In this document: in pieces, positions 9,012 to 57,303 of the stretch | Layout of the letters: every line of letters starts with the position of its first letter | How positions within the stretch are numbered: the stretch's first letter is position 1 | From: an uncultured Prevotellaceae bacterium | Lineage (GTDB): Bacteria > Bacteroidota > Bacteroidia > Bacteroidales > Bacteroidaceae | DNA: 64,000 nucleotides | Reading direction: 5' to 3' | Assembly: GCA_902792635.1 (NCBI GenBank) | Contig: CADBAG010000002.1 | Location: 64,918 to 128,917, forward strand | Translations under genes and position numbers: made by a program | Notes under the pieces: model-generated | What the model was told of the DNA's origin: nothing | Databases searched by the model: none | What the model saw: only the letters and a program-made list of their open reading frames with translations

Positions 9012-9255
9012 GCACCTCGGAGAGGTGCCACATGGTTAGCCCCACGTTAGGCGTAGCCGAAACGTGGGGTTGAATAGGAGCGAATAACCTGAAAGCCGGC
9101 CTCGAAGAGGGCGAACATGGTTAAATACCCTTTACTCTCGACCATGTTCGCCCTCTTCGAGGCCGGATTGCAACGAAAGCACCTCGGACCTAACCCCCAG
9201 GTTGCGTCGCTGCGCTCCTTACCTGGGGCTAACCGTGTTCAACCTCTTCGAGGTT
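9012..9255. repeat. 250-bp multi-hairpin palindromic element, copy A
   Basis: Order of stems: GCACCTC/GAGGTGC (9012-9028), CCCCACGTT/AACGTGGGG (9040-9069), a perfect 26-bp inverted repeat with arms 9096-9121 and 9141-9166 (CCGGCCTCGAAGAGGGCG...), CCCCAGGT/ACCTGGGG (9195-9228), and AACCTC/GAGGTT (9241-9255). GGTTAGCCCC on the left and GGGGCTAACC on the right are mutual inversions, so the whole element is an imperfect palindrome. It lies after the amylase gene, and the gap 8986-9490 holds no gene. Confidence 0.9.
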
Positions 9256-9272
9256 GTTACACGCCATCAGCT

Positions 9273-9470
9273 GACGTACGACAGCAAACCGGCTGACACG
9301 TGACGAACAACCGTCCGACACGTGACGAAGAGCTGGCTGACACGTGGCGAACAATTGTCCGACACGTGGCGGACAATCGGCTGACACGTGGCAAACAATC
9401 GGTTGACACGTGGCAAACAATCGGTTGACACGTGGCGAACGATTTGCCGACACGTGACGGATAACGACAA
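9273..9470. repeat. 22-bp tandem array with CACGTG core, array 1
   Basis: GACACGTG occurs at 9295, 9317, 9339, 9361, 9383, 9405, 9427 and 9449, always 22 bp apart, with a degenerate first unit at 9273. The part between cores is a variant of GCAAACAATCGGTT. The array starts 18 bp after palindromic element A and ends 20 bp before the GH53 start codon. The translated frames over it (HVS/RHVSA-like repeats) are an artefact: a 22-bp period shifts frame at every unit. Confidence 0.93.
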
Positions 9471-9490
9471 CGAAATTAAAACCAAATAAA

Positions 9491-10816
9491 ATGAATATCA
9501 TTACACATCAAAAACATGCTTTTATCCATACGCTTGCGTGTGGATTATTCATGCTTCTTTTCAGCACAACGGCATCGGCCCAAAAATATGTCGGTGGCGA
9601 CATCTCCATGCTGCCGAAATATGAGGAAGCGGGGGCAACCTATTACACGCACAGCGGACAGAGCATCTCCGACGTCATCACGTATTTCAAGGACGAAGGT
9701 ATGAACGCCATGCGCGTGCGTCTCTTCGTCAATCCTGCGAAGCAGACGACGAATGAGAGCAACGGCACCTACACCTGGGTGACGGACGACAATGTCTGCC
9801 AGGATATCGACTGGGTGAAGAGCTTGGGCAAGCGTATCAAAGACGCCGGACTGAAGTTCATGCTCGACATTCACTACTCCGACACATGGGCTGACCCGGG
9901 GAAGCAATGGACACCGGCTGCGTGGGCCTCACTCAGTGACGATGCGCTGGCCACAAAGGTATACGACTATACGAAAGACGTACTGACACAGTTGAAGGCT
10001 GCCGGTGCTGAGCCTGACCTCGTACAGACGGGTAACGAGATCAGCTACGGCATGATATACGGGCGCCCCGGCAGCACGCTTTATCCGTGCTGGCCATCGT
10101 CACCCGCCGCTAACTGGACGCGTTTTGAGAAGCTCCTCACTCAGGCGACAAAAGCTACGCGCGATGTTTGTCCCGATGCCAAGATTATCCTGCATGTAGA
10201 GCGTGTGTCAACCTCGCAGCAGGGCGACAACGAGAACTATGCAGCGCTGAAGAACTTCTTCAAGCAGATGACGTCAGCCAACATCGATTACGACATCATC
10301 GGATTGAGTTATTATCCATATTTCCATGGTCCCCTGTCGGAGTTGGAAGGTGCGATTAGTTATCTCGAGTCGACCTACCCGAGCAAGAACATCATGATCG
10401 TGGAGACGGGCTATCCCTATGCATGGGCAGTACCGGGTACAACCTATAATTATAGTGGCACTTATGCTTATTCAGATGATGGTCAAAAGAGTTTTACCGA
10501 TGCACTTATCACGATGCTGAACAAACACAGTAAGGTGACCGGTTTGTTCTGGTGGTGGCCGGAATACAATGCCAAAGGTACAAGTCTGAGTGGTTGGTAC
10601 AATGCTCCGCTCTTCGACAGTCGCACGGGTCGTGCTACATCCACCGTATCATCGCTAAAGAACTTCGTGTCGACATCGGCAGGCATCAAAGCAGTACAAA
10701 ACAATGGTGTCTCTCGCGATGATTCCTACTACAACCTTGCGGGTCAGCGCATCAACAAGCCGCACCAAGGTATGTATATTCATCAAGGGAAGAAAGTGGT
10801 AAGGCCTCTCCCCTAA
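9491..10816 (+). CDS. Secreted GH53 arabinogalactan endo-beta-1,4-galactanase
   Basis: The product (441 residues) should cleave the beta-1,4-galactan side chains of pectin (type I arabinogalactan). The signal peptide ends near STTASAQ. GH53 landmarks are GMNAMRVRLFVNP, LDIHYSDTWADPGKQW, DLVQTGNEISYG with the acid/base Glu183, and IMIVETGYPY with the nucleophile Glu305. The length fits a single catalytic domain plus a tail. The tail YNLAGQRI...GMYIHQGKKVVRPLP matches the end of the neighbouring amylase almost word for word but runs three residues longer. The upstream gap is filled by the 22-bp array, so its promoter must lie inside or beyond those repeats. It may be a free-standing pectin enzyme rather than part of the starch locus. 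Confidence 0.93.
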   Translation: MNIITHQKHAFIHTLACGLFMLLFSTTASAQKYVGGDISMLPKYEEAGATYYTHSGQSISDVITYFKDEGMNAMRVRLFVNPAKQTTNESNGTYTWVTDDNVCQDIDWVKSLGKRIKDAGLKFMLDIHYSDTWADPGKQWTPAAWASLSDDALATKVYDYTKDVLTQLKAAGAEPDLVQTGNEISYGMIYGRPGSTLYPCWPSSPAANWTRFEKLLTQATKATRDVCPDAKIILHVERVSTSQQGDNENYAALKNFFKQMTSANIDYDIIGLSYYPYFHGPLSELEGAISYLESTYPSKNIMIVETGYPYAWAVPGTTYNYSGTYAYSDDGQKSFTDALITMLNKHSKVTGLFWWWPEYNAKGTSLSGWYNAPLFDSRTGRATSTVSSLKNFVSTSAGIKAVQNNGVSRDDSYYNLAGQRINKPHQGMYIHQGKKVVRPLP

Positions 10817-11050
10817 CCAACCCCCGTAGGGAGGGAGAAGACCTCACCCTGGCCTTCATATGAAGGGGGAAAGCGATACGACGATGGGACCCAGGAATGG
10901 GGCATCTATACCACGAGACTAGAGTAGGATCGAAGCAGCCTCGGAGAGGCTGAATTCCGAAAGCATGATGAGCCTCATGAATGCCCCCCTCCGGGGCGCT
11001 CTTCGACCCGAAGCATGACGAGCCTTATGAATGATCCCCCTCCGGGGCAC
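10817..11050. repeat. Repeat-rich spacer after the GH53 gene
   Basis: No gene is visible. It contains a CCCCTAACCAACCCCC/GGAGGG remnant at the start, the small hairpin AGCCTC/GAGGCT at 10937-10951 (as in the palindromic elements), and two direct copies of a ~43-bp unit at 10957-10999 and 11007-11050. Both copies read GAAGCATGA, GAGCC, ATGAATG and a CCCCCTCCGGGG hairpin. Confidence 0.7.
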
Positions 11051-11074
11051 CCTATAATCTAAAGAAGATACACA

Positions 11075-11114
11075 CAAAAAAATCCGGCAATGACCGAGGT
11101 CATAAACCGGATTC
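11075..11114 (-). terminator. Rho-independent terminator of tRNA-Phe
   Basis: On the minus strand AATCCGG plus TTTATGACC pairs with GGTCATT plus CCGGATT and runs straight into a T-tract (complement of the A-run at 11076-11082). It lies about 17 bp after the tRNA. Confidence 0.88.
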
Positions 11115-11130
11115 GAATGAAAGGAGGAAG

Positions 11131-11203
11131 TGGTACCTCTTGGAGTTGAACCAAGGACACATGGATTTTCAGTCCATTGCTCTACCACCTGAGCTAAGGC
11201 ACC
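11131..11203 (-). tRNA. tRNA-Phe (anticodon GAA)
   Basis: The minus strand folds as a cloverleaf. The acceptor stem is GGTGCCT/AGGTACC with one G-U pair, the D-stem GCTC/GAGC, the anticodon stem ATGGA/TCCAT with loop CTGAAAA (anticodon GAA), and the T-stem CTTGG/CCAAG with TTCAACT. The discriminator is A, and CCA is not encoded. Confidence 0.97.
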
Positions 11204-11249
11204 AAGTTGCAATTGTGTTAGGAATTGTGTTATTTCCTTATTGCGGGTG

Positions 11250-11281
11250 CAAAGGTAGTACTTTTCTTTTAACCCTGCAAA
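11250..11281 (-). promoter_or_regulatory. Promoter of tRNA-Phe
   Basis: On the minus strand, TTTG (11278-11281), 20 bp, then TACCTTTG (11250-11257) gives a full match to the Bacteroidetes primary-sigma consensus. The start of transcription would be about 40 nt before the tRNA. Confidence 0.85.
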
Positions 11282-11347
11282 TTTTTCGGGAAGAATTTTC
11301 AAACTATTTTTATTAAAGATATATTTCGTGAAAAACTTGCCTTTTTC

Positions 11348-11379
11348 TTTCGCTGTTTCGGGAAAAAGTTATACCTTTG
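11348..11379 (+). promoter_or_regulatory. Promoter of tRNA-Pro
   Basis: TACCTTTG at 11372-11379 matches the -7 box, and TTTC at 11348-11351 lies 20 bp upstream as a one-mismatch -33 element. The tRNA begins 11 bp later. Confidence 0.8.
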
Positions 11380-11389
11380 CAGCCGCTAT

Positions 11390-11462
11390 CGGGATGTAGC
11401 GCAGTTGGTAGCGCACTACGTTCGGGACGTAGGGGTCGCCAGTTCGAGTCCGGTCATCCCGA
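11390..11462 (+). tRNA. tRNA-Pro (anticodon CGG)
   Basis: The acceptor stem CGGGATG/CATCCCG has the C1-G72 pair typical of bacterial proline tRNAs. The anticodon stem CTACG/CGTAG encloses TTCGGGA (anticodon CGG). The T-loop is TTCGAGT, and the discriminator is A at 11462. CCA is not encoded. Confidence 0.97.
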
Positions 11463-11465
11463 CAC

Positions 11466-11506
11466 ACACAAAAGAGGCGGCTGAGTTTCAGCCGCCTCTT
11501 TTGTGT
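11466..11506 (+). terminator. Strong rho-independent terminator of tRNA-Pro
   Basis: This is a perfect 19-bp stem (11466-11484 with 11488-11506) around GAGGCGGCTGA/TCAGCCGCCTC with a 3-nt loop. The A-run and T-run belong to the stem, so it could stop transcription from either side. Confidence 0.93.
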
Positions 11507-11560
11507 TTATGACAATTTCATGAGTAATATACTCTTTTCTCCACATAGATTCGATTTTCT

Positions 11561-11675
11561 CACACGGATTCTAAAGATCTTAAAGATAGTTACGCCGCTT
11601 TGCGGCTACACATACCATTAGCATCACCGCGTAGCGAATAGCGTAGCCATCTTTAAAATCTTTAAAATCCGTGTG
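11561..11675. repeat. MITE-like inverted repeat, 115 bp
   Basis: The left end CACACGGATT...AAAGATCTTAAAGAT (11561-11587) is the imperfect inverse of the right end (11649-11675, ATCTTTAAAATC...ATCCGTGTG). The interior has a small GCCGC/GCGGC hairpin. No coding potential is seen. Confidence 0.7.
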
Positions 11676-11695
11676 AAATATAAATCATCGGAAGA

Positions 11696-12166
11696 TCAAT
11701 CATCGACCATTCCGATGATCGCCGCTACATCCTCGGCATTGATCGTTCCCGTGATGAGGATACCTACGCACGAGTTGTCTCCAGCTGACACTGCTACGAC
11801 CTCCTGGATGGTGTCGCCTTTCTGCTTGACGAGGATGTTCATGCCCTCAGTCTTGCCTTTCTTCAAGCCCGTGAACTCACTATAGCCGTCATCCGACAGG
11901 GCCGCGATCTTCTTCACGAACTTCTTACGGACGCTGCCTGAGCAATCGGAGAGCGTCAGCACCTTGGCCTCGTCCACTTCTTTGAGCAAGGCTGCGACAT
12001 TGCCGTCCTTCACTTTGGCGGCAGCGATGGTCAGCATGAGCTTCGGCACACTGACATACTCCGCGTGTTTCTTGTCACGATACTCGTTAAACACGCTGCT
12101 TGCCGACTGGCAGAAAGCCAACTGGCAAGTCAACAACAATACTAATGTAAACAGAGTCTTCTTCAT
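11696..12166 (-). CDS. DUF4252-type secreted protein
   Basis: This 156-residue protein has a signal peptide (MKKTLFTLVLLLTCQLAFCQ) and no convincing lipobox; the Cys before the Gln sits at the cleavage site. The rest, from SSVFNEYRDKKHAEYVSVPK to INAEDVAAIIGMVDD, has the pattern I associate with DUF4252 proteins, small periplasmic proteins of unknown role common in Bacteroidetes. The gene stands alone: palindromic element B lies on its 5' side and a MITE-like repeat just past its 3' end. No clear promoter was found. Confidence 0.8.
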   Translation of the reverse strand: MKKTLFTLVLLLTCQLAFCQSASSVFNEYRDKKHAEYVSVPKLMLTIAAAKVKDGNVAALLKEVDEAKVLTLSDCSGSVRKKFVKKIAALSDDGYSEFTGLKKGKTEGMNILVKQKGDTIQEVVAVSAGDNSCVGILITGTINAEDVAAIIGMVDD

Positions 12167-12230
12167 ATTATTTTTTTATTTATCGCTCTTTTTATTACTA
12201 CTCAGTATTCTCAATCTATGTGGGCGTTCA

Positions 12231-12481
12231 GGTCCCCGAAGGGGGCCAACATGATTAGCCCCAGGTAAGGAGCGCAGCGACGCAACCTGGGGGTTAGGTC
12301 CGGCGTGAATTGCTGCAATCCGGCCTCGAAGAGGGCGAACATGGTCTAGGACAGTTTGAGTTGGTAGAAAACCATGTTCGCCCTCTTCGAGGCCGGTATT
12401 CAGGTCATCAACTTCAATCTCCACCCCACGTTTCGGCTTCGCCTCACGTGGAGCTAACCGTGTAGCACCTCTCCGAGGTGC
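12231..12481. repeat. 250-bp multi-hairpin palindromic element, copy B
   Basis: Stems in order: GGTCCCC/GGGGGCC (12231-12247), CCCCAGGT/ACCTGGGG (12259-12292, loop with GGAGCGCAGCGACG), a perfect 26-bp central inverted repeat (12320-12345 with 12371-12396), CCCACGT/ACGTGG (12424-12452), and GCACCTC/GAGGTGC (12465-12481). Compared with copy A the two kinds of second stem have swapped sides. It fills the gap 12167-12589, which holds no gene. Confidence 0.9.
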
Positions 12482-12589
12482 TTATTAGCTAACCCTTTGC
12501 CACCCTTTCGACGAAGACTGACGAGTTACGTTATTTTGCAGTGGCCGCCACATGGGGCGGTCACTGCAAAGCGCACCTAAACAGATATC

Positions 12590-13528
12590 CTAATACTCTA
12601 TATAATGTTTTAGACGCTCGAAATCGGCATTTGTAAAATCCTTCATCAACTTTAACTCTTCAATGTTGTGTATCGGGCCATAGAGGCGGCGGTAATCGAC
12701 GATATCCTTCGCCTGATAATAATTGATATATGGATGCCGCTTGAGCTCATTCAGCGAGAGTTTGTTGACGTTCAGTCGATGCACCTCCGCAGGATTGACC
12801 TCAAAATAAGACAACGTCTCTTTCGGGAAGTCAGCTATCTCCAACAACTGCTCTGCAGAATAAAAACCACCTAAGTATTTCCGTCGAAAGGCTATTTCTT
12901 TCGCATAATACCGTCCAATGCCCGGCACTTTCATCAGCTGTGTCGTATCAGCTTCGTTGAGCTCTATATGCTCGCCCTGTCGTAGCTTCGTGGGATAATG
13001 ACGGGCAGAGGCACTGTCCAAGGCTTGCCGATGTGTAGTAGGATACGGTGCTCTGTTATTGGCATAGTCGTAAGGTTGATAGTCGGCACCGATACGGACA
13101 TATGGTGCGAGGTCGCGGTATTGCTTCCGCGTCAATCCATAGACGCGACCAAAGTCCTCCCTACTACGAAACACACCTCCTTTAGCGCGATAGCGATAGA
13201 TGCTCCTTACCTGCCACGGAGCGAGGCCAAGCGCAAGAAGTTCCGTGGAGTCAGCAGTATTCGGGTCGAAAGGGAAGCGATTCTCTGTGCGACCCGGCAC
13301 GGCATAATAACGGTTTCCTCCACCTTGCATCTGCGGATAACCATTGCGATAATAACCTCCACCACGGCGTGCCATTGTCGTCGAGTCCCCGGCAGGAGCC
13401 GTCGTCAGCATCGGCTCCTTGTCGTGGAAAAACCAAATGACGGCACTGACAAGGACGAAGATGACCAATAGAAACCAGATAACGCGGCGGTCGGACCGAC
13501 GGATATAATGTAGGTCTTTTAGGTTCAT
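12590..13528 (-). CDS. Membrane-anchored helix-hairpin-helix (ComEA-like) protein
   Basis: The protein has 312 residues with one N-terminal transmembrane segment (about 17-34, WFLLVIFVLVSAVIWFF), a low-complexity Gly/Tyr/Arg stretch, and three helix-hairpin-helix regions. These are at about 85-140 (DPNTADSTELLALGLAPWQV), 190-245 (LNEADTTQLMKVPGIGRYYA) and 250-312 (VNKLSLNELKRHPYINYYQA). HhH repeats of this kind bind DNA backbone without sequence specificity, and ComEA uses them to take up DNA; that role is not shown here. The start codon is directly preceded by a 7-bp tandem repeat, so the initiation region is made entirely of repeat. Confidence 0.82.
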   Translation of the reverse strand: MNLKDLHYIRRSDRRVIWFLLVIFVLVSAVIWFFHDKEPMLTTAPAGDSTTMARRGGGYYRNGYPQMQGGGNRYYAVPGRTENRFPFDPNTADSTELLALGLAPWQVRSIYRYRAKGGVFRSREDFGRVYGLTRKQYRDLAPYVRIGADYQPYDYANNRAPYPTTHRQALDSASARHYPTKLRQGEHIELNEADTTQLMKVPGIGRYYAKEIAFRRKYLGGFYSAEQLLEIADFPKETLSYFEVNPAEVHRLNVNKLSLNELKRHPYINYYQAKDIVDYRRLYGPIHNIEELKLMKDFTNADFERLKHYIEY

Positions 13529-13643
13529 AGTGAAGAGTGAAGAGTGAAGAGTGAAGAGTGAAGAGTGAAGAGTGAAGAGTGAAGAGTGAAGAGTGAAGAG
13601 TGAAGAGTGAAGAGTGAAGAATGAAGAATGAAGAGTGAAGAGT
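13529..13643. repeat. Heptanucleotide tandem repeat (AGTGAAG)n
   Basis: About 16 copies of a 7-bp unit run from directly before the ATG of the helix-hairpin-helix gene to 15 bp from the stop codon of the transporter gene. Two units near 13619-13632 carry G-to-A changes (AATGAAG). The repeat has no stop codon in any minus-strand frame. Related units (AGTGAAGAATTAAG) occur between murE and mraY. Confidence 0.95.
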
Positions 13644-13657
13644 GGTTGGGATTGGAA

Positions 13658-15001
13658 TTAAATGATCCCAAGCTGGTGCAGGAACACCACGGCGATGCAG
13701 AGCGGTGAGACGAAGCGGACGAGGAAGAGCCAGAAGCCGTAGACACGGACAGAGGCAGTGCCCCAGTTTGTGAACTCGTCGCGTACCATCTTGCGCGGAG
13801 CAATCCAGCCGATGAGGATACACGTCGTGAAGGAGCCAAGCGGCAGCAGGATGTTCGACGTGAGGAAGTCACAGAAGTCGAGGAAGTCCTTTCCACACAC
13901 CTTGATATCTACTGCGCCACACGAGAGCGAACAGGTGATGCCGATAAGGATGGCTATGACAGTCTCGATGATGGCGCCCTTTGGCCGCGAAATATGCAGT
14001 TCCTCAAAGAAGAGCGACGTACCGATCTCGTGCATGGAGATCGTCGAGGTGAGGGCTGCCAAAGCCAAGAGTGCATAGAACAAAATGCCGATGATATAAC
14101 CCAAGACCGGAGTGAAAGCTTGTTGAAAGACGTTCGGCAGCGTGATGAAGATCAGCGACGGGCCACTGTCAGGGTTCACGCCTACAGAGAACGCCGCGGG
14201 GAAGATCATCAGGCCAGCAAGGATAGCAACGAGGGTATCGACAAGCGCTACCTGCATAGAGGATTTCAAGAGGTTCGTCTGACGTGTGAAGTAAGATGCG
14301 TAGGTACAAAGACAGGCGGTGCCGAGCGACAATGAGAAGAACGCCTGGCCAAGGCCATCGAAGATGATCTGATGGTCGATCTTGGAGAAGTCGGGCTTGA
14401 ACAGGAACGAGATTCCTTTCCCCGCATCGGGGAGCGTGCAAGAAGCGACCACGATGACGAGCAAGAGGATGAACAACGTCGGCATGAGGATGTTGCTCAC
14501 CTTCTCGATACCTTTGCGCACGCCACGTACCACAACGAGGTGGGTAAGGATGATGAATACAATGGTCCAGACGACAGGCTCTATGGGATCAGAGGAGAAC
14601 TTCTTGAAATACTCCTGTACATAAGCCGCATCACCATTGATGTTACCCATGATGGAAGCGAAGAGGTACTGAAGGCACCAACCTGCGATGACGGAGTAGA
14701 AGCCGAGGATGATAAGTGAGGTCAGTGCTCCGATGAATCCCACTGCGCCCCACGCCTTGTTTCCTCCGGCACGGGTATAAGCACGGGCAGCATTGGCGGC
14801 ACCGTGACGGCCCACGACAAACTCCGCGATCATTCCCGGGATGCCGAGCACAAGGACGCAGGCGAGATAGACCACGATGAACGCGGCGCCACCGTCGTGA
14901 CCCGTCATGTAAGGGAATCGCCAGATGTTCCCCAAGCCCACAGCAGAGCCGGCTGTGGCGAGCACCACACCTATCTTAGTACCAAAATTGCCTCGTTCCA
15001 T
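13658..15001 (-). CDS. Sodium-dependent transporter, NSS (SNF) family
   Basis: This 447-residue inner-membrane protein has about 11-12 hydrophobic segments. The family signature GLGNIWRFPYM lies in the first helix and is followed by GRHGAANAARAYTRAGG. NSS proteins move amino acids or similar small molecules in with sodium. It is close in sequence to the next gene upstream (same length, shared VGVNPDSGPSLIFITLPNVF), so the two arose by tandem duplication. It has its own promoter, so it is not simply the second gene of an operon. The substrate cannot be told from sequence. Confidence 0.92.
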   Translation of the reverse strand: MERGNFGTKIGVVLATAGSAVGLGNIWRFPYMTGHDGGAAFIVVYLACVLVLGIPGMIAEFVVGRHGAANAARAYTRAGGNKAWGAVGFIGALTSLIILGFYSVIAGWCLQYLFASIMGNINGDAAYVQEYFKKFSSDPIEPVVWTIVFIILTHLVVVRGVRKGIEKVSNILMPTLFILLLVIVVASCTLPDAGKGISFLFKPDFSKIDHQIIFDGLGQAFFSLSLGTACLCTYASYFTRQTNLLKSSMQVALVDTLVAILAGLMIFPAAFSVGVNPDSGPSLIFITLPNVFQQAFTPVLGYIIGILFYALLALAALTSTISMHEIGTSLFFEELHISRPKGAIIETVIAILIGITCSLSCGAVDIKVCGKDFLDFCDFLTSNILLPLGSFTTCILIGWIAPRKMVRDEFTNWGTASVRVYGFWLFLVRFVSPLCIAVVFLHQLGII

Positions 15002-15026
15002 ATGTTTATATCATTACTAACATCTG

Positions 15027-15057
15027 CAAAAATAGTGAAACCACCTGAGAATGCAAA
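15027..15057 (-). promoter_or_regulatory. Promoter of the downstream NSS transporter gene
   Basis: On the minus strand TTTG (15054-15057), 19 bp, then TATTTTTG (15027-15034). It lies in the 68-bp gap between the two transporter genes and gives a leader of about 20 nt. Confidence 0.8.
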
Positions 15058-15069
15058 CGAAATATCAAA

Positions 15070-16428: not shown

Positions 16429-16467
16429 AAATATGCTTTATCTATAACTTTACAATCAATTATTGTG

Positions 16468-16660: not shown

Positions 16661-16674
16661 CTTTGCGGCTCTGA

Positions 16675-30051: not shown

Positions 30052-30189
30052 CACGTGTCAGAAAGCCGTCCGACACGTGGCAACCAATCGGTCGACACGT
30101 GTCAGCCAATCGGTCGGCACGTGTCAGCCAATCGGTCGGCACGTGGCAGCAAATCGGTCGGCACGTGGCAGCAAATCGGTCGGCACGTG
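30052..30189. repeat. 22-bp tandem array with CACGTG core, array 2
   Basis: CACGTG occurs at 30052, 30074, 30096, 30118, 30140, 30162 and 30184, always 22 bp apart. The linker is CAGCCAATCGGTCGG or a close variant, so the unit is homologous to the array at 9273-9470, more than 20 kb away. It lies in the 650-bp gap between glsA and the dcw cluster, a gap with no full gene. Confidence 0.93.
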
Positions 30190-30213
30190 GCAGCAAACAA
30201 CGATTCAACCGAT

Positions 30214-49368: not shown

Positions 49369-49407
49369 TCAGGCTGCACGAATCATCGCGCAGCCTGAAT
49401 TGTTTTT
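49369..49407 (+). terminator. Terminator after rpsT
   Basis: TCAGGCTGC (49369-49377) pairs with GCAGCCTGA (49390-49398), followed by ATTGTTTTT. Confidence 0.87.
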
Positions 49408-49434
49408 GGTTCTACCGGTTTTCGGATTGATAAG

Positions 49435-49705
49435 GTCCCCGGAGGGGGCCAATTAGGTTAGCCCCAGGTGAGGAGCGCAGCGACGTAACCTGGGGTTTAG
49501 GTCCGGTTGTTTTTCGTTGAGATCCGGCCTCGAAGAGGGCGAACCTTATTATCCCCGACACTCAGCATCCCCACAACCAGCACCCCTCTGAGGTTCGCCC
49601 TCTTCGAGGCCGACAGGTCAACGTTCGGGCTCCTATCTAAACACCCCAGGTTACGTCGCTGCGCTCCTCACCTGGGGCTAACCATGTTCAACCTCTTCGA
49701 GGTTG
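49435..49705. repeat. 250-bp multi-hairpin palindromic element, copy C (variant core)
   Basis: Stems: GGTCCCC/GGGGGCC (49435-49451), CCCCAGGT/ACCTGGGG (49463-49496), a perfect 22-bp central inverted repeat (49526-49547 with 49592-49613), CCCCAGGT/ACCTGGGG again (49645-49678, inverted orientation), and AACCTC/GAGGTT (49691-49705). The central arms end GCGAACCT/AGGTTCGC instead of GCGAACATGGT/ACCATGTTCGC, so both arms changed together. It fills most of the gap 49305-49956 between rpsT and gyrB. Confidence 0.9.
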
Positions 49706-49766
49706 TTCTCCTGCCAACTCGAAAAGAACCTTGTTTTTATTGTAATCAGCACCCCTTTCCATCATA

Positions 49767-49832: not shown

Positions 49833-49924
49833 CTTACAAACCTTACACCTTACAAACCTTACATTAAGCTTTTTCCAAGGATGTTTTTTATGATAAAACA
49901 TTAGCTTGTTTGCCGCTTTTTTAG

Positions 49925-49932
49925 TACCTTTG
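49925..49932 (+). promoter_or_regulatory. Promoter -7 box of gyrB
   Basis: TACCTTTG matches the -7 consensus, 24 bp before the ATG. The -33 region is poor (TTAG at the right spacing). Confidence 0.65.
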
Positions 49933-49956
49933 CATGGTAAATCGAAGCTATAAGAA

Positions 49957-51930
49957 ATGGCAGAAAATCAGAATCCTGAAGATAACTATTCAGCCTCTAA
50001 TATTCAAGTATTAGAGGGCTTGGAAGCCGTGCGCAAACGCCCGGCCATGTATATCGGTGACATTTCCGAGAAAGGTCTCCATCACCTTATCAACGAGACC
50101 GTAGACAACTGTATCGACGAGGCTATGGCCGGCTACTGCACGGAAGTGGAAGTAACCATCAATGCAGACGGCAGCTGCACCGTGGAAGATAACGGTCGTG
50201 GTATCCCTGTCGATGAGCACAAGAAGCTGCATAAGTCAGCTCTCGAGGTTGTCATGACAGTGCTGCACGCCGGTGGTAAGTTCGATAAGAACTCTTACAA
50301 AGTGTCCGGTGGTCTGCATGGTGTGGGTGTGAGCTGTGTCAACGCCCTCTCCACACACATGAAGTCGCAGGTCTTCCGCGATGGTCATATCTATCAGCAG
50401 GAATACGAGAAGGGTAAGCCCCTCTATCCGGTAAAGATTATCGGTGAGACCACGAAGCGTGGCACGCGCCAGCAGTTCTGGCCCGATCCGACCATCTTCA
50501 CCACAACAACCTTCCAGTGGGATATCGTAGCCCGCCGTATGCGTGAGCTCGCCTACCTCAATGCAGGCATCAAAATCACGCTCACCGACCTCCGTCCCGA
50601 TCCTGAGACCGGCAAGACACGCCAGGAAGTGTTCCATGCCAAGGACGGACTGAAGGAGTTTGTGCGCTACATCGACCGTCACCGCCAGCACCTCTTCGAC
50701 GATGTCATCTATCTCAAGACAGAGAAACAGGGTGTGCCTATCGAGGTGGCTATCATGTACAACACCGACTACTCTGAGAACCTCCACTCTTACGTCAACA
50801 ATATCAATACCATCGAGGGCGGTACGCATGTCACCGGTTTCCGTCAGGCGTTGACCCGTGTGCTGAAGAACTATGCCGACACCGATCCACAGATCAAGAA
50901 GCAGATCGAGAAGGCAAAGATCGAGGTTGCCGGTGAGGACTTCCGCGAGGGTCTGACCGCCGTCATCAGCATCAAGGTCGCTGAGCCTCAGTTTGAGGGT
51001 CAGACGAAGACGAAGCTCGGTAACAGTGAAGTCACGGGTGCCGTGAACCAGGCTGTGGGTGAGGCACTGACCAACTATCTCGAGGAGCATCCGGACGAAG
51101 CTCATAAGATCTGCGAGAAAGTTATCCTCGCAGCTACGGCACGTATCGCAGCGCGCAAGGCACGTGAGAGCGTGCAGCGCAAGAGCGTGATGAGCGGCAG
51201 TGGTCTGCCCGGTAAGCTTGCCGACTGCTCCAACAGAGACCCGAAGCAATGTGAGATCTTCCTCGTCGAGGGTGACTCCGCAGGTGGCTCTGCCAAGCAG
51301 GGCCGTGACCGTTACACCCAGGCTATCCTCCCGCTCCGTGGTAAGATCCTGAACGTGGAGAAAGTACAGTGGCACCGCGTGTTCGAGGCTGAGTCGGTGA
51401 TGAACATCATCCAGAGCATCGGCGTGCGCTTCGGTGTAGACGGAGAGGATGACCGCGAGGCTAATATCGACAAACTGCGCTACGACAAGATTATCATCAT
51501 GACCGATGCCGATGTCGATGGTTCTCACATCGACACACTGATCATGACGCTCTTCTTCCGCTTCATGCCGAAGGTCATTGAGGATGGACATCTGTATATC
51601 GCTACTCCCCCACTCTACAAGTGCACCTATAAGAACAAGGTCTCACAGTACTGCTACAACGACCAGCAGCGTCAGGCTTTCCTCGACAAGTACGGCAACG
51701 GTCAGGAAGGTACCAGCATCCACACCCAGCGCTACAAAGGTCTTGGTGAGATGAACCCCGAGCAGCTGTGGGAGACGACCATGGATCCTAAGACCCGTCT
51801 CTTGAAGCAGGTGACGATTGAGAATGCAGCCGAAGCCGATGAGATCTTCTCTATGCTCATGGGCGACGACGTAGAGCCCCGCCGTGAGTTCATCGAGGAA
51901 AATGCGGCATACGCTAACATTGATGCATAA
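49957..51930 (+). CDS. gyrB: DNA gyrase subunit B
   Basis: GyrB supplies the ATPase of DNA gyrase, which adds negative supercoils. The 657-residue protein has the GHKL ATP site (ETVDNCIDEAMAG, VEDNGRGIPVD, GGLHGVGVSCVNALS), the transducer domain, and the TOPRIM domain (EIFLVEGDSAGGSAKQGRDR, PLRGKILNVEKV, IMTDADVDGSHI). The C-terminal run is QRYKGLGEMNPEQLWETTMDP. It lacks the extra ~165-residue insert of the E. coli enzyme, as expected outside proteobacteria. gyrA is not in the window. Confidence 0.98.
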   Translation: MAENQNPEDNYSASNIQVLEGLEAVRKRPAMYIGDISEKGLHHLINETVDNCIDEAMAGYCTEVEVTINADGSCTVEDNGRGIPVDEHKKLHKSALEVVMTVLHAGGKFDKNSYKVSGGLHGVGVSCVNALSTHMKSQVFRDGHIYQQEYEKGKPLYPVKIIGETTKRGTRQQFWPDPTIFTTTTFQWDIVARRMRELAYLNAGIKITLTDLRPDPETGKTRQEVFHAKDGLKEFVRYIDRHRQHLFDDVIYLKTEKQGVPIEVAIMYNTDYSENLHSYVNNINTIEGGTHVTGFRQALTRVLKNYADTDPQIKKQIEKAKIEVAGEDFREGLTAVISIKVAEPQFEGQTKTKLGNSEVTGAVNQAVGEALTNYLEEHPDEAHKICEKVILAATARIAARKARESVQRKSVMSGSGLPGKLADCSNRDPKQCEIFLVEGDSAGGSAKQGRDRYTQAILPLRGKILNVEKVQWHRVFEAESVMNIIQSIGVRFGVDGEDDREANIDKLRYDKIIIMTDADVDGSHIDTLIMTLFFRFMPKVIEDGHLYIATPPLYKCTYKNKVSQYCYNDQQRQAFLDKYGNGQEGTSIHTQRYKGLGEMNPEQLWETTMDPKTRLLKQVTIENAAEADEIFSMLMGDDVEPRREFIEENAAYANIDA

Positions 51931-51936
51931 TATTAC

Positions 51937-51958
51937 GCATCGCGCTTGGGCGCGATGC
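51937..51958 (+). other. Stem-loop just after gyrB
   Basis: GCATCGCGC pairs with GCGCGATGC around TTGG, 6 bp after the gyrB stop. The following bases are A-rich, with no T-tract, so it is a hairpin of unclear function rather than a canonical terminator. Confidence 0.55.
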
Positions 51959-51981
51959 TAAAGAATAAAGAAGAAAGAATA

Positions 51982-52962
51982 ATGAATACAGAAAGCCACA
52001 GTAAGAACTCGTTCTCTCAGTGCGCACATGTCTTCTTTATTCTTTTTTCTTTTTTCTTTAGCGAAGCGCAAGCGTCGTGGATCTCCGCGCCCCAGGCCGA
52101 CAGCCTCTCGCGTGTCTATTTTCGCAAGCTCTATCTCTTTGAAGGCAGACCACAGCGCGCACAGATAACTATCACTACCACCGGCTACTGCAAGCTCTAT
52201 ATCAACGAATGCAAGGTAGGCACAGCACCTTTCCTTCCCTTAAGCTACACAGAAGATAACAAAGCCGCAGAGTTTACTTTTGATGCCACACCTTATCTGC
52301 AATCCGACAGCAACGTCGTGGCCGTACTCTATTCTCCCGCACGAACTTCAACAACCACACAAACAACTACACAAACAACTACACAAACAACTACACAAAC
52401 AACTACCCAAGCAACTACCCAAACAAAGCAGATAGCCATAACCCTATGGGGCACAGACCATGAAGGCAAGCCATTTGCTTATGAAACTGATGCCTCCTGG
52501 CTCTGCCGAGAAGCCAACTCTAAGTTCACAGCAGATGGCCTTGAGATCATTGATGGTAGGGAGCATGACAATCCTTGGAAAGCAGCGACGATCAATGATT
52601 TAGCTTTATGGAATCAAGTCTCGGAAGATAGTTCTGCAGGCACTGTGGAGTATTATGCAGCGCCCGTAGCCCCACGTGTCAGCCATATCGATTCAAGGGA
52701 TGCGGATGACATTCTTAGCAATGACATTCCAGCCTCTCATCCGTTCTACGGCTTCTTCCGTGCTACACTGCGCGAAGCAAGACAAGGCGAGAAGATAAGG
52801 CTCGGCAACGTGCTTTATATCTGCAACGGCACCTTCGACGAGCAAGTCTTCCCGGAGTTTGGAGCATCTTTCACAAACGGAATAAGCGTTGAGGGCAAAC
52901 GGCAACGCATCACGAATCTTGAAGCGGTAAGCATTGCTCCCAACAAGAGCCTTCATTATTAG
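51982..52962 (+). CDS. Secreted protein resembling an alpha-L-rhamnosidase N-terminal domain, no catalytic domain
   Basis: The protein has 326 residues from the ATG at 51982; the frame before it is non-ATG and overlaps the hairpin. A signal-like segment (VFFILFSFFFSEAQA) is followed by WISAP...VYFRKLYLFEGRPQRAQITI...GYCKLYINECKVG, the lectin-like beta-sandwich that opens bacterial alpha-L-rhamnosidases (GH78). FKATINDL-type WKAATINDLALWN and FYGFFRATL follow, but the (alpha/alpha)6 catalytic barrel is missing. A Thr/Gln repeat (residues 124-147) interrupts the sandwich. It lies 51 bp after gyrB and 41 bp before an AraC regulator. It could be a sugar-binding protein or a decaying gene; function is unknown. 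Confidence 0.6.
   Translation: MNTESHSKNSFSQCAHVFFILFSFFFSEAQASWISAPQADSLSRVYFRKLYLFEGRPQRAQITITTTGYCKLYINECKVGTAPFLPLSYTEDNKAAEFTFDATPYLQSDSNVVAVLYSPARTSTTTQTTTQTTTQTTTQTTTQATTQTKQIAITLWGTDHEGKPFAYETDASWLCREANSKFTADGLEIIDGREHDNPWKAATINDLALWNQVSEDSSAGTVEYYAAPVAPRVSHIDSRDADDILSNDIPASHPFYGFFRATLREARQGEKIRLGNVLYICNGTFDEQVFPEFGASFTNGISVEGKRQRITNLEAVSIAPNKSLHY
52351..52422 (+). repeat. Coding 12-bp tandem repeat (Thr-Thr-Thr-Gln)
   Basis: Six units of ACAACTACACAA or a close variant lie in frame and encode TTTQ repeats. Because the unit is a multiple of three, slippage would change the loop length without breaking the frame. Confidence 0.9.
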
Positions 52963-53003
52963 AACCCAGCACAAAAGCTTGGTGTCATTAAATAAAGAGA
53001 ACG

Positions 53004-53885
53004 ATGATCAACGAAATGCCAATCATAACAATAGCAAGTGTAAAGCAAGCCTCAACATGCCTGAATCTCGGCGATGACCTTGCTCTGATAGACAATGTGA
53101 AGTCTGTCATCCTTCCCGGTGAAGCGAAACGATTAGGTTGCTTTATTTTTGCATTCTGCGATAGAGGCGCTGTCAACTATGAGATAGACACGATGCCTCA
53201 AAAAGTGGAGGCTGGGCATTGTATCATCATGTGTCCGGGGCAGGTACTGCAGAAGGTAGAGCTCAGCACTGATTGTCAGGGCCGCATGGTGTTTATGTCG
53301 CCCGGGTACGCCCAGGAGGTGCTCACGGGCATGCACGACCTCTCTTCAATCTTCCTCTTCTCCCGTCTCCACCCCGTCTTTGGCATGGACCGCGAAGAGG
53401 CACGCAGCATTCTCGGCTTCTACCTCCTTATCCGGCAGAAGGTCAGCGAGACCACACATCGTTTCCGCAAAGACACCGTAAAGGCGCTGCTGCAAGCCTT
53501 CCTCTATGACGCCGGCAACATCTTCTGGAAGGTGTTTAACAATGAGGATGACAAGAACACGCGCAATGAGGAGATCTTTATGCAGTTCATTGAACTCGTG
53601 GAGAAGCACTTCAAGACGGAGCGGCGTGTGACCTGGTATGCTTTGCAGATGCACATCACCCCCAAATATCTCTCCGAGACGATCCGAAAGGTGAGCCGGC
53701 AGACGCCCGGCGAATGGATTGACAGTTACGTCATGTTGGAGCTGCGCGTATTGCTCCGTACGAGTCCGCTATCTATCAAGGAGATAACAGAGCAGATGCA
53801 TTTCCCCAACCAGAGCTTCCTCGGCAAGTACTTCAAACAGCATGCGGGAGTATCGCCGAAGGAGTACAGGAGACCCCACCCCTAA
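53004..53885 (+). CDS. AraC-family transcriptional regulator
   Basis: This 293-residue regulator has an N-terminal cupin-like sensor half (about 20-130, with GHCIIMCPGQVLQKVEL) and a C-terminal pair of helix-turn-helix motifs (about 190-293; PKYLSETIRKVSRQTPGEWI and SIKEITEQMHFPNQSFLGKYFKQHAG). The last block is the conserved second HTH of AraC proteins. It probably senses a small molecule and activates a nearby target; the rhamnosidase-like gene just upstream is one candidate. It converges on the DUF3109 gene with a 2-bp gap. Confidence 0.92.
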   Translation: MINEMPIITIASVKQASTCLNLGDDLALIDNVKSVILPGEAKRLGCFIFAFCDRGAVNYEIDTMPQKVEAGHCIIMCPGQVLQKVELSTDCQGRMVFMSPGYAQEVLTGMHDLSSIFLFSRLHPVFGMDREEARSILGFYLLIRQKVSETTHRFRKDTVKALLQAFLYDAGNIFWKVFNNEDDKNTRNEEIFMQFIELVEKHFKTERRVTWYALQMHITPKYLSETIRKVSRQTPGEWIDSYVMLELRVLLRTSPLSIKEITEQMHFPNQSFLGKYFKQHAGVSPKEYRRPHP

Positions 53886-53887
53886 CC

Positions 53888-54502
53888 CTACTCGATTGCC
53901 TTTACCACTTCCTCCAACTCTTTATACCACGCTTCTCCAAACCTTCTGATCAGCGGCTCCTTTAAAAACTGATAGACGCGGATGCCGAGCTTCTTACCTA
54001 ACACCACAGCATCGTGGCAGACATCCCAACGGTTATAGTTGATGCCTACAAGCCCCATATTGAACTTCTTCTCACGGATAGGATAGAGCGCGCAGGAGAT
54101 AGGCTTGCACCACTTGATGCGCCCAGCCCGATAAGCCCGTTCGAAGGCACAGAGACAACAGTGAGGAATAGTCTCACCACTGTTGAAGTCCTTGATATCA
54201 TGATAGCATGTGAAGACACAGTCTTTCTTCCCCACAATACTCGTCACGAGGTCACCGTCGTTGTCGGTATAAGCCACGCCTTGCTTGTCGATAACGCTCT
54301 GTGCAGAGGCCGACAGCTCGCTCCACACGGCATCAAGGTTATCCTCCATGGCACCAATCTCATCGAGCGTCACAGGAGCACCCGCATCACCCTCGACACA
54401 GCATACACCTTTACATTTGGAGAGGTCACAGCAGAAATATTCTGTGATGATATCCGGCGACACAAGTACGTCACCGATCTGCATGATATGTAGTTCCTTC
54501 AT
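53888..54502 (-). CDS. DUF3109 cysteine-rich protein
   Basis: The 204-residue soluble protein has many paired cysteines: EYFCCDLSKCKGVCCVEGD, CVFTCYHD, HCCLCAFERA, WCKPISCALYP and DVCHDA. The spacing is that of DUF3109, related to the YkgJ-type zinc or iron-sulfur cluster proteins. The cysteines probably bind metal. The cellular role is not known. The first ATG is used; a second at codon 7 is possible. Confidence 0.88.
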   Translation of the reverse strand: MKELHIMQIGDVLVSPDIITEYFCCDLSKCKGVCCVEGDAGAPVTLDEIGAMEDNLDAVWSELSASAQSVIDKQGVAYTDNDGDLVTSIVGKKDCVFTCYHDIKDFNSGETIPHCCLCAFERAYRAGRIKWCKPISCALYPIREKKFNMGLVGINYNRWDVCHDAVVLGKKLGIRVYQFLKEPLIRRFGEAWYKELEEVVKAIE

Positions 54503-54549
54503 GGATTACTATTAAAAAAATTAGTTTATCTGACTTTTGAGCTGTTAAA

Positions 54550-54834
54550 GTCCCCTAAGGGGTGTCAATATAGTTAGCAATAAGCACCTCGAAGAGGTGC
54601 CACACGGTTAGCCCCAGGTAAGGAGCGCAGCGACGCAACCTGGGGTTTCGGTTCGGAGCGGTTTCGTTGTAATCCGGCCTCGAAGAGGGCGAACATGGTC
54701 TAGAGAGATTGGTATTAGGCGATAACCATGTTCGCCCTCTTCGAGGCCGGTTTTCAGGTCATTAGCTTCATTCGCAACCCCACGTTTCGGCTACGCCTCA
54801 CGTGGGGCTAACTTAGTTCAACCTCTTCGAGGTT
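54550..54834. repeat. 250-bp multi-hairpin palindromic element, copy D
   Basis: GTCCCC/GGGG (54550-54562) and GCACCTC/GAGGTGC (54584-54600) come first. Then come CCCCAGGT/ACCTGGGG (54612-54645), a perfect 26-bp central inverted repeat (54674-54699 with 54725-54750), CCCCACGT/ACGTGGGG (54778-54807) and AACCTC/GAGGTT (54820-54834). Central arms are identical to those of copies A and B. It fills the gap 54503-54864. Confidence 0.9.
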
Positions 54835-54864
54835 GTGTACCCCCATCAATCCGGGAACCGGAAA

Positions 54865-55530
54865 TTACCAGTCAATTTCTTCTTCTCCGTTTGCTTTCAG
54901 ATAAGCATTGCAGCGCGAGAACTGATGCTGCCCGAACCATCCTCCGCGGTTAGCAGAGAGTGGTGAGGGATGCACCGACTCGAGGATCAAGTTCTTAGAG
55001 GCATCGATGAACCCACGCTTGCTGCGCGCATAACCGCCCCAAAGCATGTAGACGATATGCTCGCGGTGAGCCGACAACGCCTTGATAGCTGCATCGGTGA
55101 AGAAACTCCACCCTAACCGCTGATGACTGTTCGCCATATGGGCACGCACGGTGAGCGTAGCGTTGAGCAGCAGCACACCTTGCTTGGCCCAGCGTGTGAG
55201 GTCGCCGTTCGTAGGCATGGGCTTGCCGAGGTCGTCGTGGATCTCCTTGAAGATATTGACGAGCGAGGGTGGCATCACTACCCCGGAAGGAACAGAAAAA
55301 CTCAGTCCCATGGCCTGACCCGGCTCATGATAAGGATCCTGGCCGATGATAACAACCTTCACCTTGTCGAAAGGCGTGAGGTTGAAAGCATTGAAGATGA
55401 GATGTCCGGGAGGAAAGCACGGACCGTTCTTATACTCTTGCCTGACAGCGTCGGTGAGTTGCTTGAAGTAAGGAGTCTCAAACTCCGGCTGGAGATACTG
55501 CTTCCACGTGGGTTCTATCTGTACGTTCAT
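54865..55530 (-). CDS. ung: Uracil-DNA glycosylase, family 1
   Basis: Ung removes uracil from DNA. The 221-residue enzyme has the water-activating loop GQDPYHEPGQAMG (Asp65, His68), FSVPSGV, LLNATLTVRAHMANSH and the minor-groove loop SVHPSPLSANRG (His187). Length and motifs are complete. It lies 11 bp after the SGNH hydrolase gene, so the two are probably cotranscribed although unrelated in function. Confidence 0.97.
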   Translation of the reverse strand: MNVQIEPTWKQYLQPEFETPYFKQLTDAVRQEYKNGPCFPPGHLIFNAFNLTPFDKVKVVIIGQDPYHEPGQAMGLSFSVPSGVVMPPSLVNIFKEIHDDLGKPMPTNGDLTRWAKQGVLLLNATLTVRAHMANSHQRLGWSFFTDAAIKALSAHREHIVYMLWGGYARSKRGFIDASKNLILESVHPSPLSANRGGWFGQHQFSRCNAYLKANGEEEIDW

Positions 55531-55541
55531 AGTGCTAAACG

Positions 55542-56804
55542 TTATTTTGTCTTGATGAAATAATCGGCTGCGTAGCGCCCCATCTCTTTGTAGCCTGCGG
55601 CATTGGGGTGCAGACGGTCACTGAGACAGAGGCCTTTACGTATGGCTGTAGGTTGCTTGGGGTCACGCATCAATGCATCGAAATCGATATAGCCGTCGGC
55701 GACCTTCTGCGTCCTGATCCATGCGTTGACAATGCGGCGTCCTTCCTCATGGCTTGCGTTTTTATAATAAGCACTGCCACGCATCGGCGTGATCGTTGCG
55801 AGATAGACCTTCTTATGCGCCTTGTGGCACTTCTCTATCATCGTGCGATACTCCATGATGAGATTGTAAGCTGTCACTACCCCATAGCCACTCGTACCGA
55901 GGTCGTTGATACCCTCGAAGATGACGACATCGGTGATGCCGTGCTGCTCTAAGATATCGCGGTCGAAGCGCTTCTTCGCAGCCTCGCCGTAGCCACTGTA
56001 GGTCAATACGCGGTTGTTGCCGATACCGAGGTTCAGTACGCCCCACTGCATAGGCACCGTCTTGCGGCCCTCCGCCTTGGCCTTCTCCTCTTCTTTCTGA
56101 CGGTAAGGTCCATTGAGCCAATAGCTCATCTCATCGGGCCAACGATTCTGATGATCCGTCGTCGAACCTTTGCCATCGGTGATACTGTTGCCGATAATAG
56201 CTATGCCACGGACATTATTCGTCAGCACCTCAAGGGTCGCGATATTAAACCATTTCTCGTAACGGAAAGACTTCGTGAAATCGGTCTCCGGCGTGCTCAC
56301 ACCTTTCAAGATATAACTTGTCGTGCGCGAGCCCATGTGTACGGTAGGCGACTTCGGAGCGGACTCATAATTGAGCGTGATGGCAACCGTCTCCAAAGGC
56401 TTGAGATCAAAAGCAATGGCATCAGAAAAGAGGCTCTTGCCGGCAGGAATAACGACACCATCCTTTCCACTAAACTTCAGATAACGCGCTGTCTTAGGGT
56501 CAATGCGGAAAGAGTCAATGGAATGTGCAATATAGACACTGCGAAGAACAACGGGCTGGGACGAATAGATATTGCTGAGCATAAGCCTTATGACACGTCC
56601 TCCTGCCGATACCTTCACGATCTGCCTAACTGAGCGGTCACTCATCTGATTGTTGTAAGGCATGAAATACTTCACCGGCACCTGCATAGCCGTAGCCCAC
56701 GTGCCCGTCCACTCACCGATAACAGTACCGTAGCCGACAGGATGGGCGGCCTTTGCTGAGAAAGACACGCACAGTAACAAAAAAAACAGTAACTTACGCA
56801 TCAT
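55542..56804 (-). CDS. Secreted SGNH/GDSL-type esterase
   Basis: The protein has 420 residues with a signal peptide (MMRKLLFFLLLCVSFSAKA). The N-terminal beta-sandwich-like half (about 25-195) precedes an SGNH domain with block I GIAIIGNSITDGKG (nucleophile Ser207), the Gly block around YSGYGEAAKKRF, block III FEGINDLGTSGYG (Asn), and block V SDRLHPNAAGY (Asp and His). Enzymes of this layout remove acyl or acetyl groups from sugars or other substrates. The substrate is not evident. A -7 box ends 9 bp before its ATG. Confidence 0.9.
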   Translation of the reverse strand: MMRKLLFFLLLCVSFSAKAAHPVGYGTVIGEWTGTWATAMQVPVKYFMPYNNQMSDRSVRQIVKVSAGGRVIRLMLSNIYSSQPVVLRSVYIAHSIDSFRIDPKTARYLKFSGKDGVVIPAGKSLFSDAIAFDLKPLETVAITLNYESAPKSPTVHMGSRTTSYILKGVSTPETDFTKSFRYEKWFNIATLEVLTNNVRGIAIIGNSITDGKGSTTDHQNRWPDEMSYWLNGPYRQKEEEKAKAEGRKTVPMQWGVLNLGIGNNRVLTYSGYGEAAKKRFDRDILEQHGITDVVIFEGINDLGTSGYGVVTAYNLIMEYRTMIEKCHKAHKKVYLATITPMRGSAYYKNASHEEGRRIVNAWIRTQKVADGYIDFDALMRDPKQPTAIRKGLCLSDRLHPNAAGYKEMGRYAADYFIKTK

Positions 56805-56812
56805 AACACGTG

Positions 56813-56820
56813 CAAAGTTA
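56813..56820 (-). promoter_or_regulatory. Promoter -7 box of the SGNH esterase-ung operon
   Basis: The minus strand reads TAACTTTG, ending 9 bp before the ATG. No good -33 is seen. Confidence 0.6.
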
Positions 56821-56885
56821 CTGCTTTTTTCCCGGTTATTATTAAATCCATGGTATTTTTTGAATTCTTACTGTTACCGGAATGA

Positions 56886-57055
56886 TATCAGTTTTCGAAT
56901 TGATAACGGTTTTCGAATTGATAACGGTTTCCCGGTTGCTAACGGTTTCCCGATTGATAACGGTTTCCCGATTGCTAACGGTTTCCCGATTGCTAACGGT
57001 TTCCCGGTTGCTAACGGTTTCCCGATTGATAACGGTTTCCCGATTGATAACGCAG
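56886..57055. repeat. 18-bp tandem array
   Basis: TAACGG occurs at 56904, 56922, 56940, 56958, 56976, 56994, 57012 and 57030, with a last partial unit at 57048 and a degenerate unit before the first. The unit is close to TAACGGTTTCCCGATTGA, with GA/GC and AT/GT variants. It ends 3 bp before palindromic element E. Because 18 is a multiple of three, open frames run through it on both strands, but there is no gene context. Confidence 0.93.
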
Positions 57056-57057
57056 AC

Positions 57058-57303
57058 AACCTCGAAGAGGTTGAACATGGTTAGCCCCAGGTAAGGAGCG
57101 TAGCGACGCAACCTGGGGTTTCAGTTCGATGTATTTTCGTTGCAATCCGGCCTCGAAGAGGGCTAACATGGGCGGGATGATAGGTGTTTAAGCCATGTTC
57201 GCCCTCTTCGAGGCCGGAAATCAAGTAATCAGGCTCAATACAAACCCCAGGCACCGGCTTCGCCGTCGCCTGGGGCTAACCATGTGGCACCTCTCCGAGG
57301 TGC
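57058..57303. repeat. 250-bp multi-hairpin palindromic element, copy E
   Basis: AACCTC/GAGGTT (57058-57072), then CCCCAGGT/ACCTGGGG (57085-57118), central arms 57147-57171 and 57193-57217 (25 bp with one mismatch, GCTAAC against GTTCGC), CCCCAGGC/GCCTGGGG (57245-57275) and GCACCTC/GAGGTGC (57287-57303). Tandem arrays abut both ends. It lies in the gap 56805-57456. Confidence 0.9.

Follow-up and report, generated by a model that had tools for sequence, protein, structure and literature searches.

The palindromic elements of the window

The stretch of DNA considered here, called the window, is 64,000 nucleotides of an uncultured Prevotellaceae bacterium (assembly GCA_902792635.1, contig CADBAG010000002.1, positions 64,918 to 128,917). 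A first reading of the letters alone (the sequence-only reading) had described in it five copies of a multi-hairpin palindromic element, and all five lie at the coordinates given, with the parts that had been described. They are members of a genome-wide family: their junction ATGGTTAGCCCC has 179 perfect matches across the 3.16 Mb assembly, versus one for the reversed pattern. Terminal inverted repeats (TIRs) and 8-bp target-site duplications (TSDs) identify the elements so bounded as miniature inverted-repeat transposable elements (MITEs) moved by DDE-type transposition. It is our considered opinion that these TIRs in all probability enclose the second-hand ends of a Y1 transposable element, with an ISKra4/ISH6-related mobiliser for one of the three kinds of terminus.

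None of the elements is assigned a strand. Element 3 has a full length of 323 bp (49408-49730) and stands between two copies of the 8-bp TSD TTGTTTTT (49400-49407 and 49731-49738). Its left terminus is of the kind called gamma below (49408-49431, plus strand, two mismatches to GGTTCTTCCGGTTTTCGGGTTGAT), its right terminus has diverged, and its outer hairpin GGTCCCCGGAGGGGGCC (49434-49450, no strand) is placed in part on the basis of family-wide covariation. Element 2 occupies 12194-12529, the earlier span of 12231-12481 being its hairpin part only; it has degenerate beta termini (GTAACTACTCAGT-like) and flanks that agree at just five of eight positions. The termini of element 1 (9012-9255, type A interior) are unrecognisable. 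Element 4 (54550-54868, type A interior) carries an extra outer unit and a degenerate gamma-like end (54845-54868, seven mismatches), and element 5 (57058-57303, type A interior) is without an intact terminus. The five hairpin parts have a G+C content of 54-59%, against 51% for the window.

An additional, sixth copy was found at 6474-6759. It is of type B, begins with the alpha left terminus CGAGCTGTACGGTTGAA, and lies between two 8-bp copies of the TSD AACTTATT (6466-6473 and 6760-6767); its right part carries an 84-bp deletion relative to an orthologue in another genome of the genus, G334, which is discussed below.

Termini and target duplications

The outer stem is not the end of the element. 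Matched TIRs of three kinds, alpha (CGASCTGTACGGTTGAA), beta (GTAACTACTCAGT), and gamma (GGTTCTTCCGGTTTTCGGRTTGAT), lie farther out, at median distances from the stem core of 51, 47, and 35 bp, respectively. With two, one, and three mismatches allowed, in the same order, they were found 108, 14, and 77 times, versus 0, 2, and 0 times for reversed controls. Termini of the same type lying 70-900 bp apart were then paired across 234 stretches of the bacterium's own genome, giving 55 bounded elements of 95-568 bp (mostly 95-365 bp).

Exact 8-bp TSDs flank 16 of these 55 pairs (gamma 9/32, alpha 6/20, beta 1/3). Flanks identical at seven or more of eight positions were seen for 12 of the 32 gamma pairs, versus 1.05% of mispaired flanks, and for 10 of the 20 alpha pairs, versus 8.65%. 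Among the TSD lengths tried (4, 6-10, and 12), eight alone is clearly above mispaired flanks. Please note that the TSD of element 3 was found by eye and stands outside this count because divergence of the right end keeps the pattern from matching there.

That termini and interior can be separated is plain from two groups of copies. Five copies measure no more than 150 bp; three of them (95, 122, and 149 bp) keep an exact TSD despite having lost most hairpins, the flanks of the other two (109 and 149 bp) matching at 5/8 and 3/8. Similarly, the interior of five alpha-bounded copies is different and free of hairpins, and the flanks of these copies match at 7, 7, 7, 6, and 3 of 8 positions (mispaired mean for alpha, 4.8). 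We recorded a separate alpha-ended MITE family of 212-224 bp, the interior of which consists of repeated GCAGAT words and has no CCTC/GAGG hairpins; its copies lie at L118:103-325, L185:805-1028, L307:484-695, L269:1296-1516, and L172:105-326.

By the usual description of a MITE, the elements are multi-copy, fall within 50-1000 bp, carry TIRs and TSDs (exact at the 16 pairs given above), and are free of transposase, their interiors being hairpin or non-coding as judged by eye rather than ORF by ORF (ORF, open reading frame). AT-richness, a typical rather than a defining trait, is lacking. The alpha ends are shared with an autonomous candidate in another member of the genus; for beta and gamma no such candidate was found.

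The hairpin interior and a Y1 transposase gene

DNA folding was computed for two of the five elements, and both greatly exceed their shuffles in stability: z = -15.0 for 49408-49730 (100 shuffles) and z = -9.8 for 57040-57320 (200 shuffles). Across 26 distinct rows of outer stems, pairing is kept while the sequence varies: 96.2% of cells are paired, and 44 cells carry double-sided changes versus 14.0 +/- 2.9 after shuffling (0/500 shuffles reach 44). The rows were gathered with a pattern that nearly fixes four inner pairs, and it is the three outer pairs that carry weight in this comparison. As a side observation, the outer hairpin is broken at CTCCGAGTAG/CTACTCGGAG by similar foreign sequence in three places (L320 at ~510-545, the end of L307, and L110 at ~345-430), as if another element targets the hairpin.

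All five elements first described are of type A, with the junction AACATGGTTAGCCCC. The type B junction, CTCTGCATAACCCC, has 75 copies at one mismatch or less, versus two for the control; counts on the opposite strand are uninformative because each palindromic element bears its junction on both strands. Scripted typing of 76 extracted elements, a sample drawn from 100 of the 179 junction places with overlapping pairings included, returned 55 A/A, 12 B/B, and 9 mixed. On re-reading, the nine proved to be two true hybrids (L159 and L160), two joined neighbours, and five type B elements with mismatches in the junction; reading by eye added L161 as a third hybrid. Outer units also occur in tandem (C4:134756-134854). 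The modular character proposed for the element is thus upheld by the three hybrids read by eye and by the tandem solo units.

The same 76 elements were classified by gene context: 30 co-directional, 14 convergent, 6 divergent, and 26 unclassified (15 at an edge and 11 scored inside an ORF), a tally made with a crude ORF caller that mis-scored elements 1 and 3 of the window. It had been said that all five elements lie between genes of the same direction. This is true of the five provided that a tRNA upstream of gyrB is counted, and it fails as a general rule.

A single intact Y1_Tnp gene is present in the assembly, coding for 147 aa at C25:28686-29126. It is bounded on each side by an outer hairpin, a C-rich stem-loop, and an inner hairpin, in inverted arrangement, and these flanks align with a type B MITE 0.8 kb away (106 and 123 identities). 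A second copy, on contig C48, has the same flanks; the middle of its tnpA is deleted, and what remains is roughly the first 43 codons together with the last ones, in different frames. This is the expected intermediate between an autonomous and a gene-less element. The type B interior began as the ends of a Y1 element, as the tnpA gene and its deletion intermediate document; the type A interior probably had a like origin, given the shared plan and the hybrids. It had been stated that no transposase is present, which is correct for the ORFs adjoining the elements and incorrect for the genome, where this related tnpA is found.

NCBIfam assigns the protein to IS200/IS605 (79.3 bits, cut-off 55), and it scores 37.2 bits against the RAYT model NF047646, below the cut-off of 80. 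Its motifs YIIRQKEHH and DHIH agree with the signature of subclass 1.2 (Y---Q--HH, DH[IV]H), and it has WE in place of the WQ of that subclass, WQ being present in 5/8 aligned proteins. Quentin et al. (2018, PMC6006769) report subclass 1.2 to have "no" REP (repetitive extragenic palindromic) sequences and generally no IS200-type end structure, whereas the ends here consist of three hairpins. We therefore term the protein subclass-1.2-like.

Its nearest named relative is in Alloprevotella sp. Lung230 (52%). The flanks of tnpA genes were compared at 12 distinct loci, chosen after a first look. Inverted three-hairpin flanks well above shuffles were found in G004, G002, Alloprevotella sp. Lung230, a red-deer Prevotella metagenome-assembled genome, and Bacteroides sp. 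214; G006, L039, L037, L047, and L056 were above the shuffled control by a closer distance, and L042 was not above it. The flanks in our own genome scored 148 versus 77.5 for the control. The Alloprevotella unit has 19 copies (11 + 8) in its own genome versus 0 for the control, several of them forming inverted pairs around a short centre, and the pattern has 0 or 1 copy in the other five genomes searched. At L164 (G002:C95), a tandem array of hairpin units encloses a tnpA relative that is interrupted by one in-frame stop, which suggests that hairpin arrays outlive the tnpA gene.

Window 5503-29969 has its syntenic counterpart in contig C23 of G334, with 82-97% identity in most blocks and 77% in one, and a comparison of gaps between the two revealed one insertion in common and one missing. 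The sixth element is present in both, at the same site and with the same TSD, and there is one difference in the first 280 bases, up to the deletion in the window copy. This near-identity of the intergenic element (window 6440-6753 and G334:C23, L391) in two species whose syntenic blocks differ elsewhere by several to 23% may reflect either recent exchange or constraint. Element 2 is absent from the G334 gap, where no exact empty target can be read for it, ~80 further bases being missing as well. At the gap of element 1, G334 has a type B element instead.

The nested build, with alpha termini outside and hairpins inside, recurs in four other genomes of the genus. The hairpin units that adjoin alpha termini belong to the B type in G334 and to the CGCCCTGAAAGGGC/GCCCAGGGC type in G072 and G069; those in G124 carry a CCTACGGCTATTGAGAG module that is seen in Alloprevotella as well. 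In a set of 59 relatives, which does not include G334, the A junction is almost missing, with six exact copies at most.

Probable mobilising enzymes, alternative explanations, and known systems

The alpha terminus was found in 74 of 398 genomes of the genus (our own included), the reversed control in 3; one genome, G099, has 78 alpha termini. G081 carries a 1,588-bp element enclosed by two alpha termini, the 420-aa ORF of which is related to the ISKra4, ISLre2, and ISH6 transposases, and in G222 a 69% relative of this putative transposase (residues 80-420) adjoins one alpha terminus. According to PMC3942029, Mutator-superfamily insertion sequences (IS) have a C conserved at the terminus and repeats of 8-9 bp, and ISH6 has an A/T-rich 8-bp target. 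The alpha terminus, CGASCTG, has the terminal C, and the MITE TSD is 8 bp. All six exact alpha TSDs start with AA or AG and end with TT; one of the six fits the ISH6 target motif AANATNTT in full. Judged by the shared termini, the alpha mobiliser is most likely a Mutator-superfamily (ISKra4/ISH6-related) IS, and an ISKra4-related transposase would move the MITEs in trans. Beta and gamma presumably have DDE partners of their own. An IS1595-family partner for gamma was sought and none is present in our own genome; one ISL3-family transposase is broken by a contig end (C65) with no gamma terminus seen adjoining, and it was left unlinked.

The mechanism that we propose has two layers. DDE transposases insert the TIR-bounded non-autonomous units, duplicating 8 bp of A/T-rich target, as the TSDs show. 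The interior would descend from the two ends, left and right, of an IS200/IS605-like Y1 (HUH) TnpA element that has lost the tnpA between them; each end has three parts, namely the outer hairpin, the C-rich stem-loop, and the inner hairpin. The Y1 enzyme would once have moved the hairpin part, and perhaps still cuts there. Three kinds of terminus may have come to surround one interior either by recombination between palindromes or by TnpA cutting at hairpins.

Several observations count against this nested-MITE explanation. That three different termini should surround a single interior is strange for sequence-specific DDE enzymes; one enzyme reading the hairpins would account for it more simply. 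Exact TSDs are lacking at 39/55 terminus pairs, and outside our own genome only the G334 copy has one, those of G124 and G072 being without. Read by eye, hairpin units lie inside just 9/44 alpha ends of other genomes; at a mechanical minimum rate of two perfect hairpins per 360 bp the figure is 4/44 inside versus 0/44 outside, one of the four being a single hairpin in 127 bp. In 10 of 25 tnpA relatives (out of 57), the two 500-bp flanks share no inverted repeat as long as 10 bp. The G081 ORF is below all NCBIfam cut-offs (ISKra4 100.9/205, ISLre2 58.5/200, ISH6 46.7/240 bits) and matches no Pfam model, the 8-mers flanking its element are not identical (AAATGTTT/AATCTTTT), and no left terminus was found for the G222 relative. 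No autonomous gamma or beta element was found, nor any alpha transposase in the own-genome stretches (564,530 bases with overlaps, less than one-fifth of the genome). Collapsed full-length IS copies may be missing from the assembly, because at least 49 of its 138 contig ends lie within 250 bp of an element part (counted with lengths for 48 of 69 contigs).

A rival explanation is that the hairpin units are spread through single-strand transposition by the Y1 TnpA on its own, in the manner of REPINs or bacterial interspersed mosaic elements (BIMEs), the TIRs and TSDs being incidental. The presence of tnpA within the same plan in several genomes, the multi-copy Alloprevotella units, the covariation of the hairpins, and the tandem solo units and A/B hybrids would all fit. 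What this cannot easily accommodate is an exact 8-bp duplication at termini lying outside the hairpins, or TIR-bounded copies that have no hairpins and still tend to have matching flanks; Y1 transposition, to our knowledge, produces no TSD. A pure form of this explanation was abandoned once the TSDs emerged, and we now regard it as unlikely. A tentative combination of the two, which we hold to be possible and well short of probable, is an element with two engines, in which a DDE (Mutator-like) enzyme acts at the TIRs and an HUH Y1 TnpA at the hairpins of the same DNA. The Y1 enzyme would cut and rejoin single-strand hairpin units, giving tandem solo units, A/B hybrids, and swapped stems, and the DDE enzyme would then disperse the recombined units. 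If so, cognate hairpin arrays would provide, for part of the Bacteroidota, the substrate that has been missing for subclass-1.2-like TnpA.

The sequence-only reading had left three functions on offer: non-autonomous mobile element, structured RNA, or nucleoid site. The mobile option is borne out by the TIRs, the 8-bp TSDs, the deleted versions, and presence or absence in a relative; the other two gained no positive support here, side roles being possible. Strong folding with covariation, and a mostly intergenic location that is seldom between divergent genes (6/50 classified), would suit a structured RNA or a regulatory or terminator element kept for the host. DNA hairpins equally predict covariation, however, no Rfam match exists (at the gathering score the window has three tRNAs only), and presence varies between relatives at two gaps among those compared, so that we rate such a role as very improbable. 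Still less can be said for nucleoid or topology sites (BIME-like gyrase/IHF sites): the elements are dispersed, palindromic, and mostly intergenic, but such sites are putative only, transposition explains the spread, and the scarcity of the A junction among the 59 relatives speaks against them. The crowding of contig ends near element parts might raise the suspicion of an assembly artefact, to which we give next to no credence, since there are copies in the interior of long contigs, where their flanks and TSDs are distinct, and the orthologous copy in G334 refutes it.

The element had been said to belong to no named family, and this stands after searches of Rfam and of phage, plasmid, and IMG/VR collections, although each layer belongs to a known superfamily. 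Transfer by phages or plasmids was rejected: 49400-49740 has no match in INPHARED or PLSDB, and three patterns have no exact match in IMG/VR.

Several published systems can be compared. Mutator-superfamily IS (p-MULT: ISH6, ISKra4, ISLre2; PMC3942029) resemble the alpha system in termini that begin with C, an 8-bp A/T-rich target, and the ISKra4-nearest candidate partner; they differ in that gamma and beta termini here do not begin with C. The eukaryotic Pack-MULEs named in the same paper are also non-autonomous elements with foreign sequence. For both comparisons the scores here are under the cut-offs, and the cargo is the ends of another transposon, not a cellular gene. The Y1 TnpA of subclass 1.2 (PMC6006769) shares DHIH, Y---Q--HH, the 147-aa size, low copy number, and Bacteroidota hosts, and differs from ours in the elaborate hairpin ends and in WE, not WQ. 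REP, BIME, and REPIN systems with RAYT (PMC3733652) likewise have a Y1 gene close to inverted hairpin units in mosaic and tandem arrangement. According to that paper, REPs tagged with CGTC occur in Bacteroidetes among other phyla, and CGTC units flank no IS200-type gene. Here, by contrast, the RAYT score is below cut-off, TIRs and TSDs are present, and the units have three hairpins (GTAG- and CGTC-tagged families were compared by description). BrickBuilt and other Porphyromonas gingivalis MITEs (PMC4596501) are also from Bacteroidota, have TIRs, and trouble assemblies, but their TIRs match IS5-family IS, there are 18-19 copies in the compared strains, and the interior is a 23-nt minisatellite, not hairpins. 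PATE are reported as MITEs of IS200-type elements.

No description of the present element was found in the literature searched, subscription papers being mostly outside its reach. We have thus not found in print either the nesting of Y1 ends in DDE MITEs or an end structure for a subclass-1.2-like TnpA. One repeat would record two unrelated transposition systems, and would supply a substrate for a Y1 transposase class that PMC6006769 lists without one. The recurrence of such hairpin ends within Mutator-like MITEs, in several genomes belonging to one genus, makes it testable whether the HUH and DDE systems work together or one exploits the other. In practical terms, the elements account for at least one-third of the contig ends of this assembly.

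Finally, several minisatellites of the window lie close to elements. An 18-bp minisatellite, ATTGATAACGGTTTCCCG (8.6 copies, 56899-57052), directly adjoins element 5 and resembles a gamma terminus multiplied in tandem (7-8 mismatches). Minisatellites of 22 bp lie at 9290-9456, 30052-30197, and 57329-57424; two of the three share the core CACGTGGC, and two of the three adjoin elements 1 and 5.

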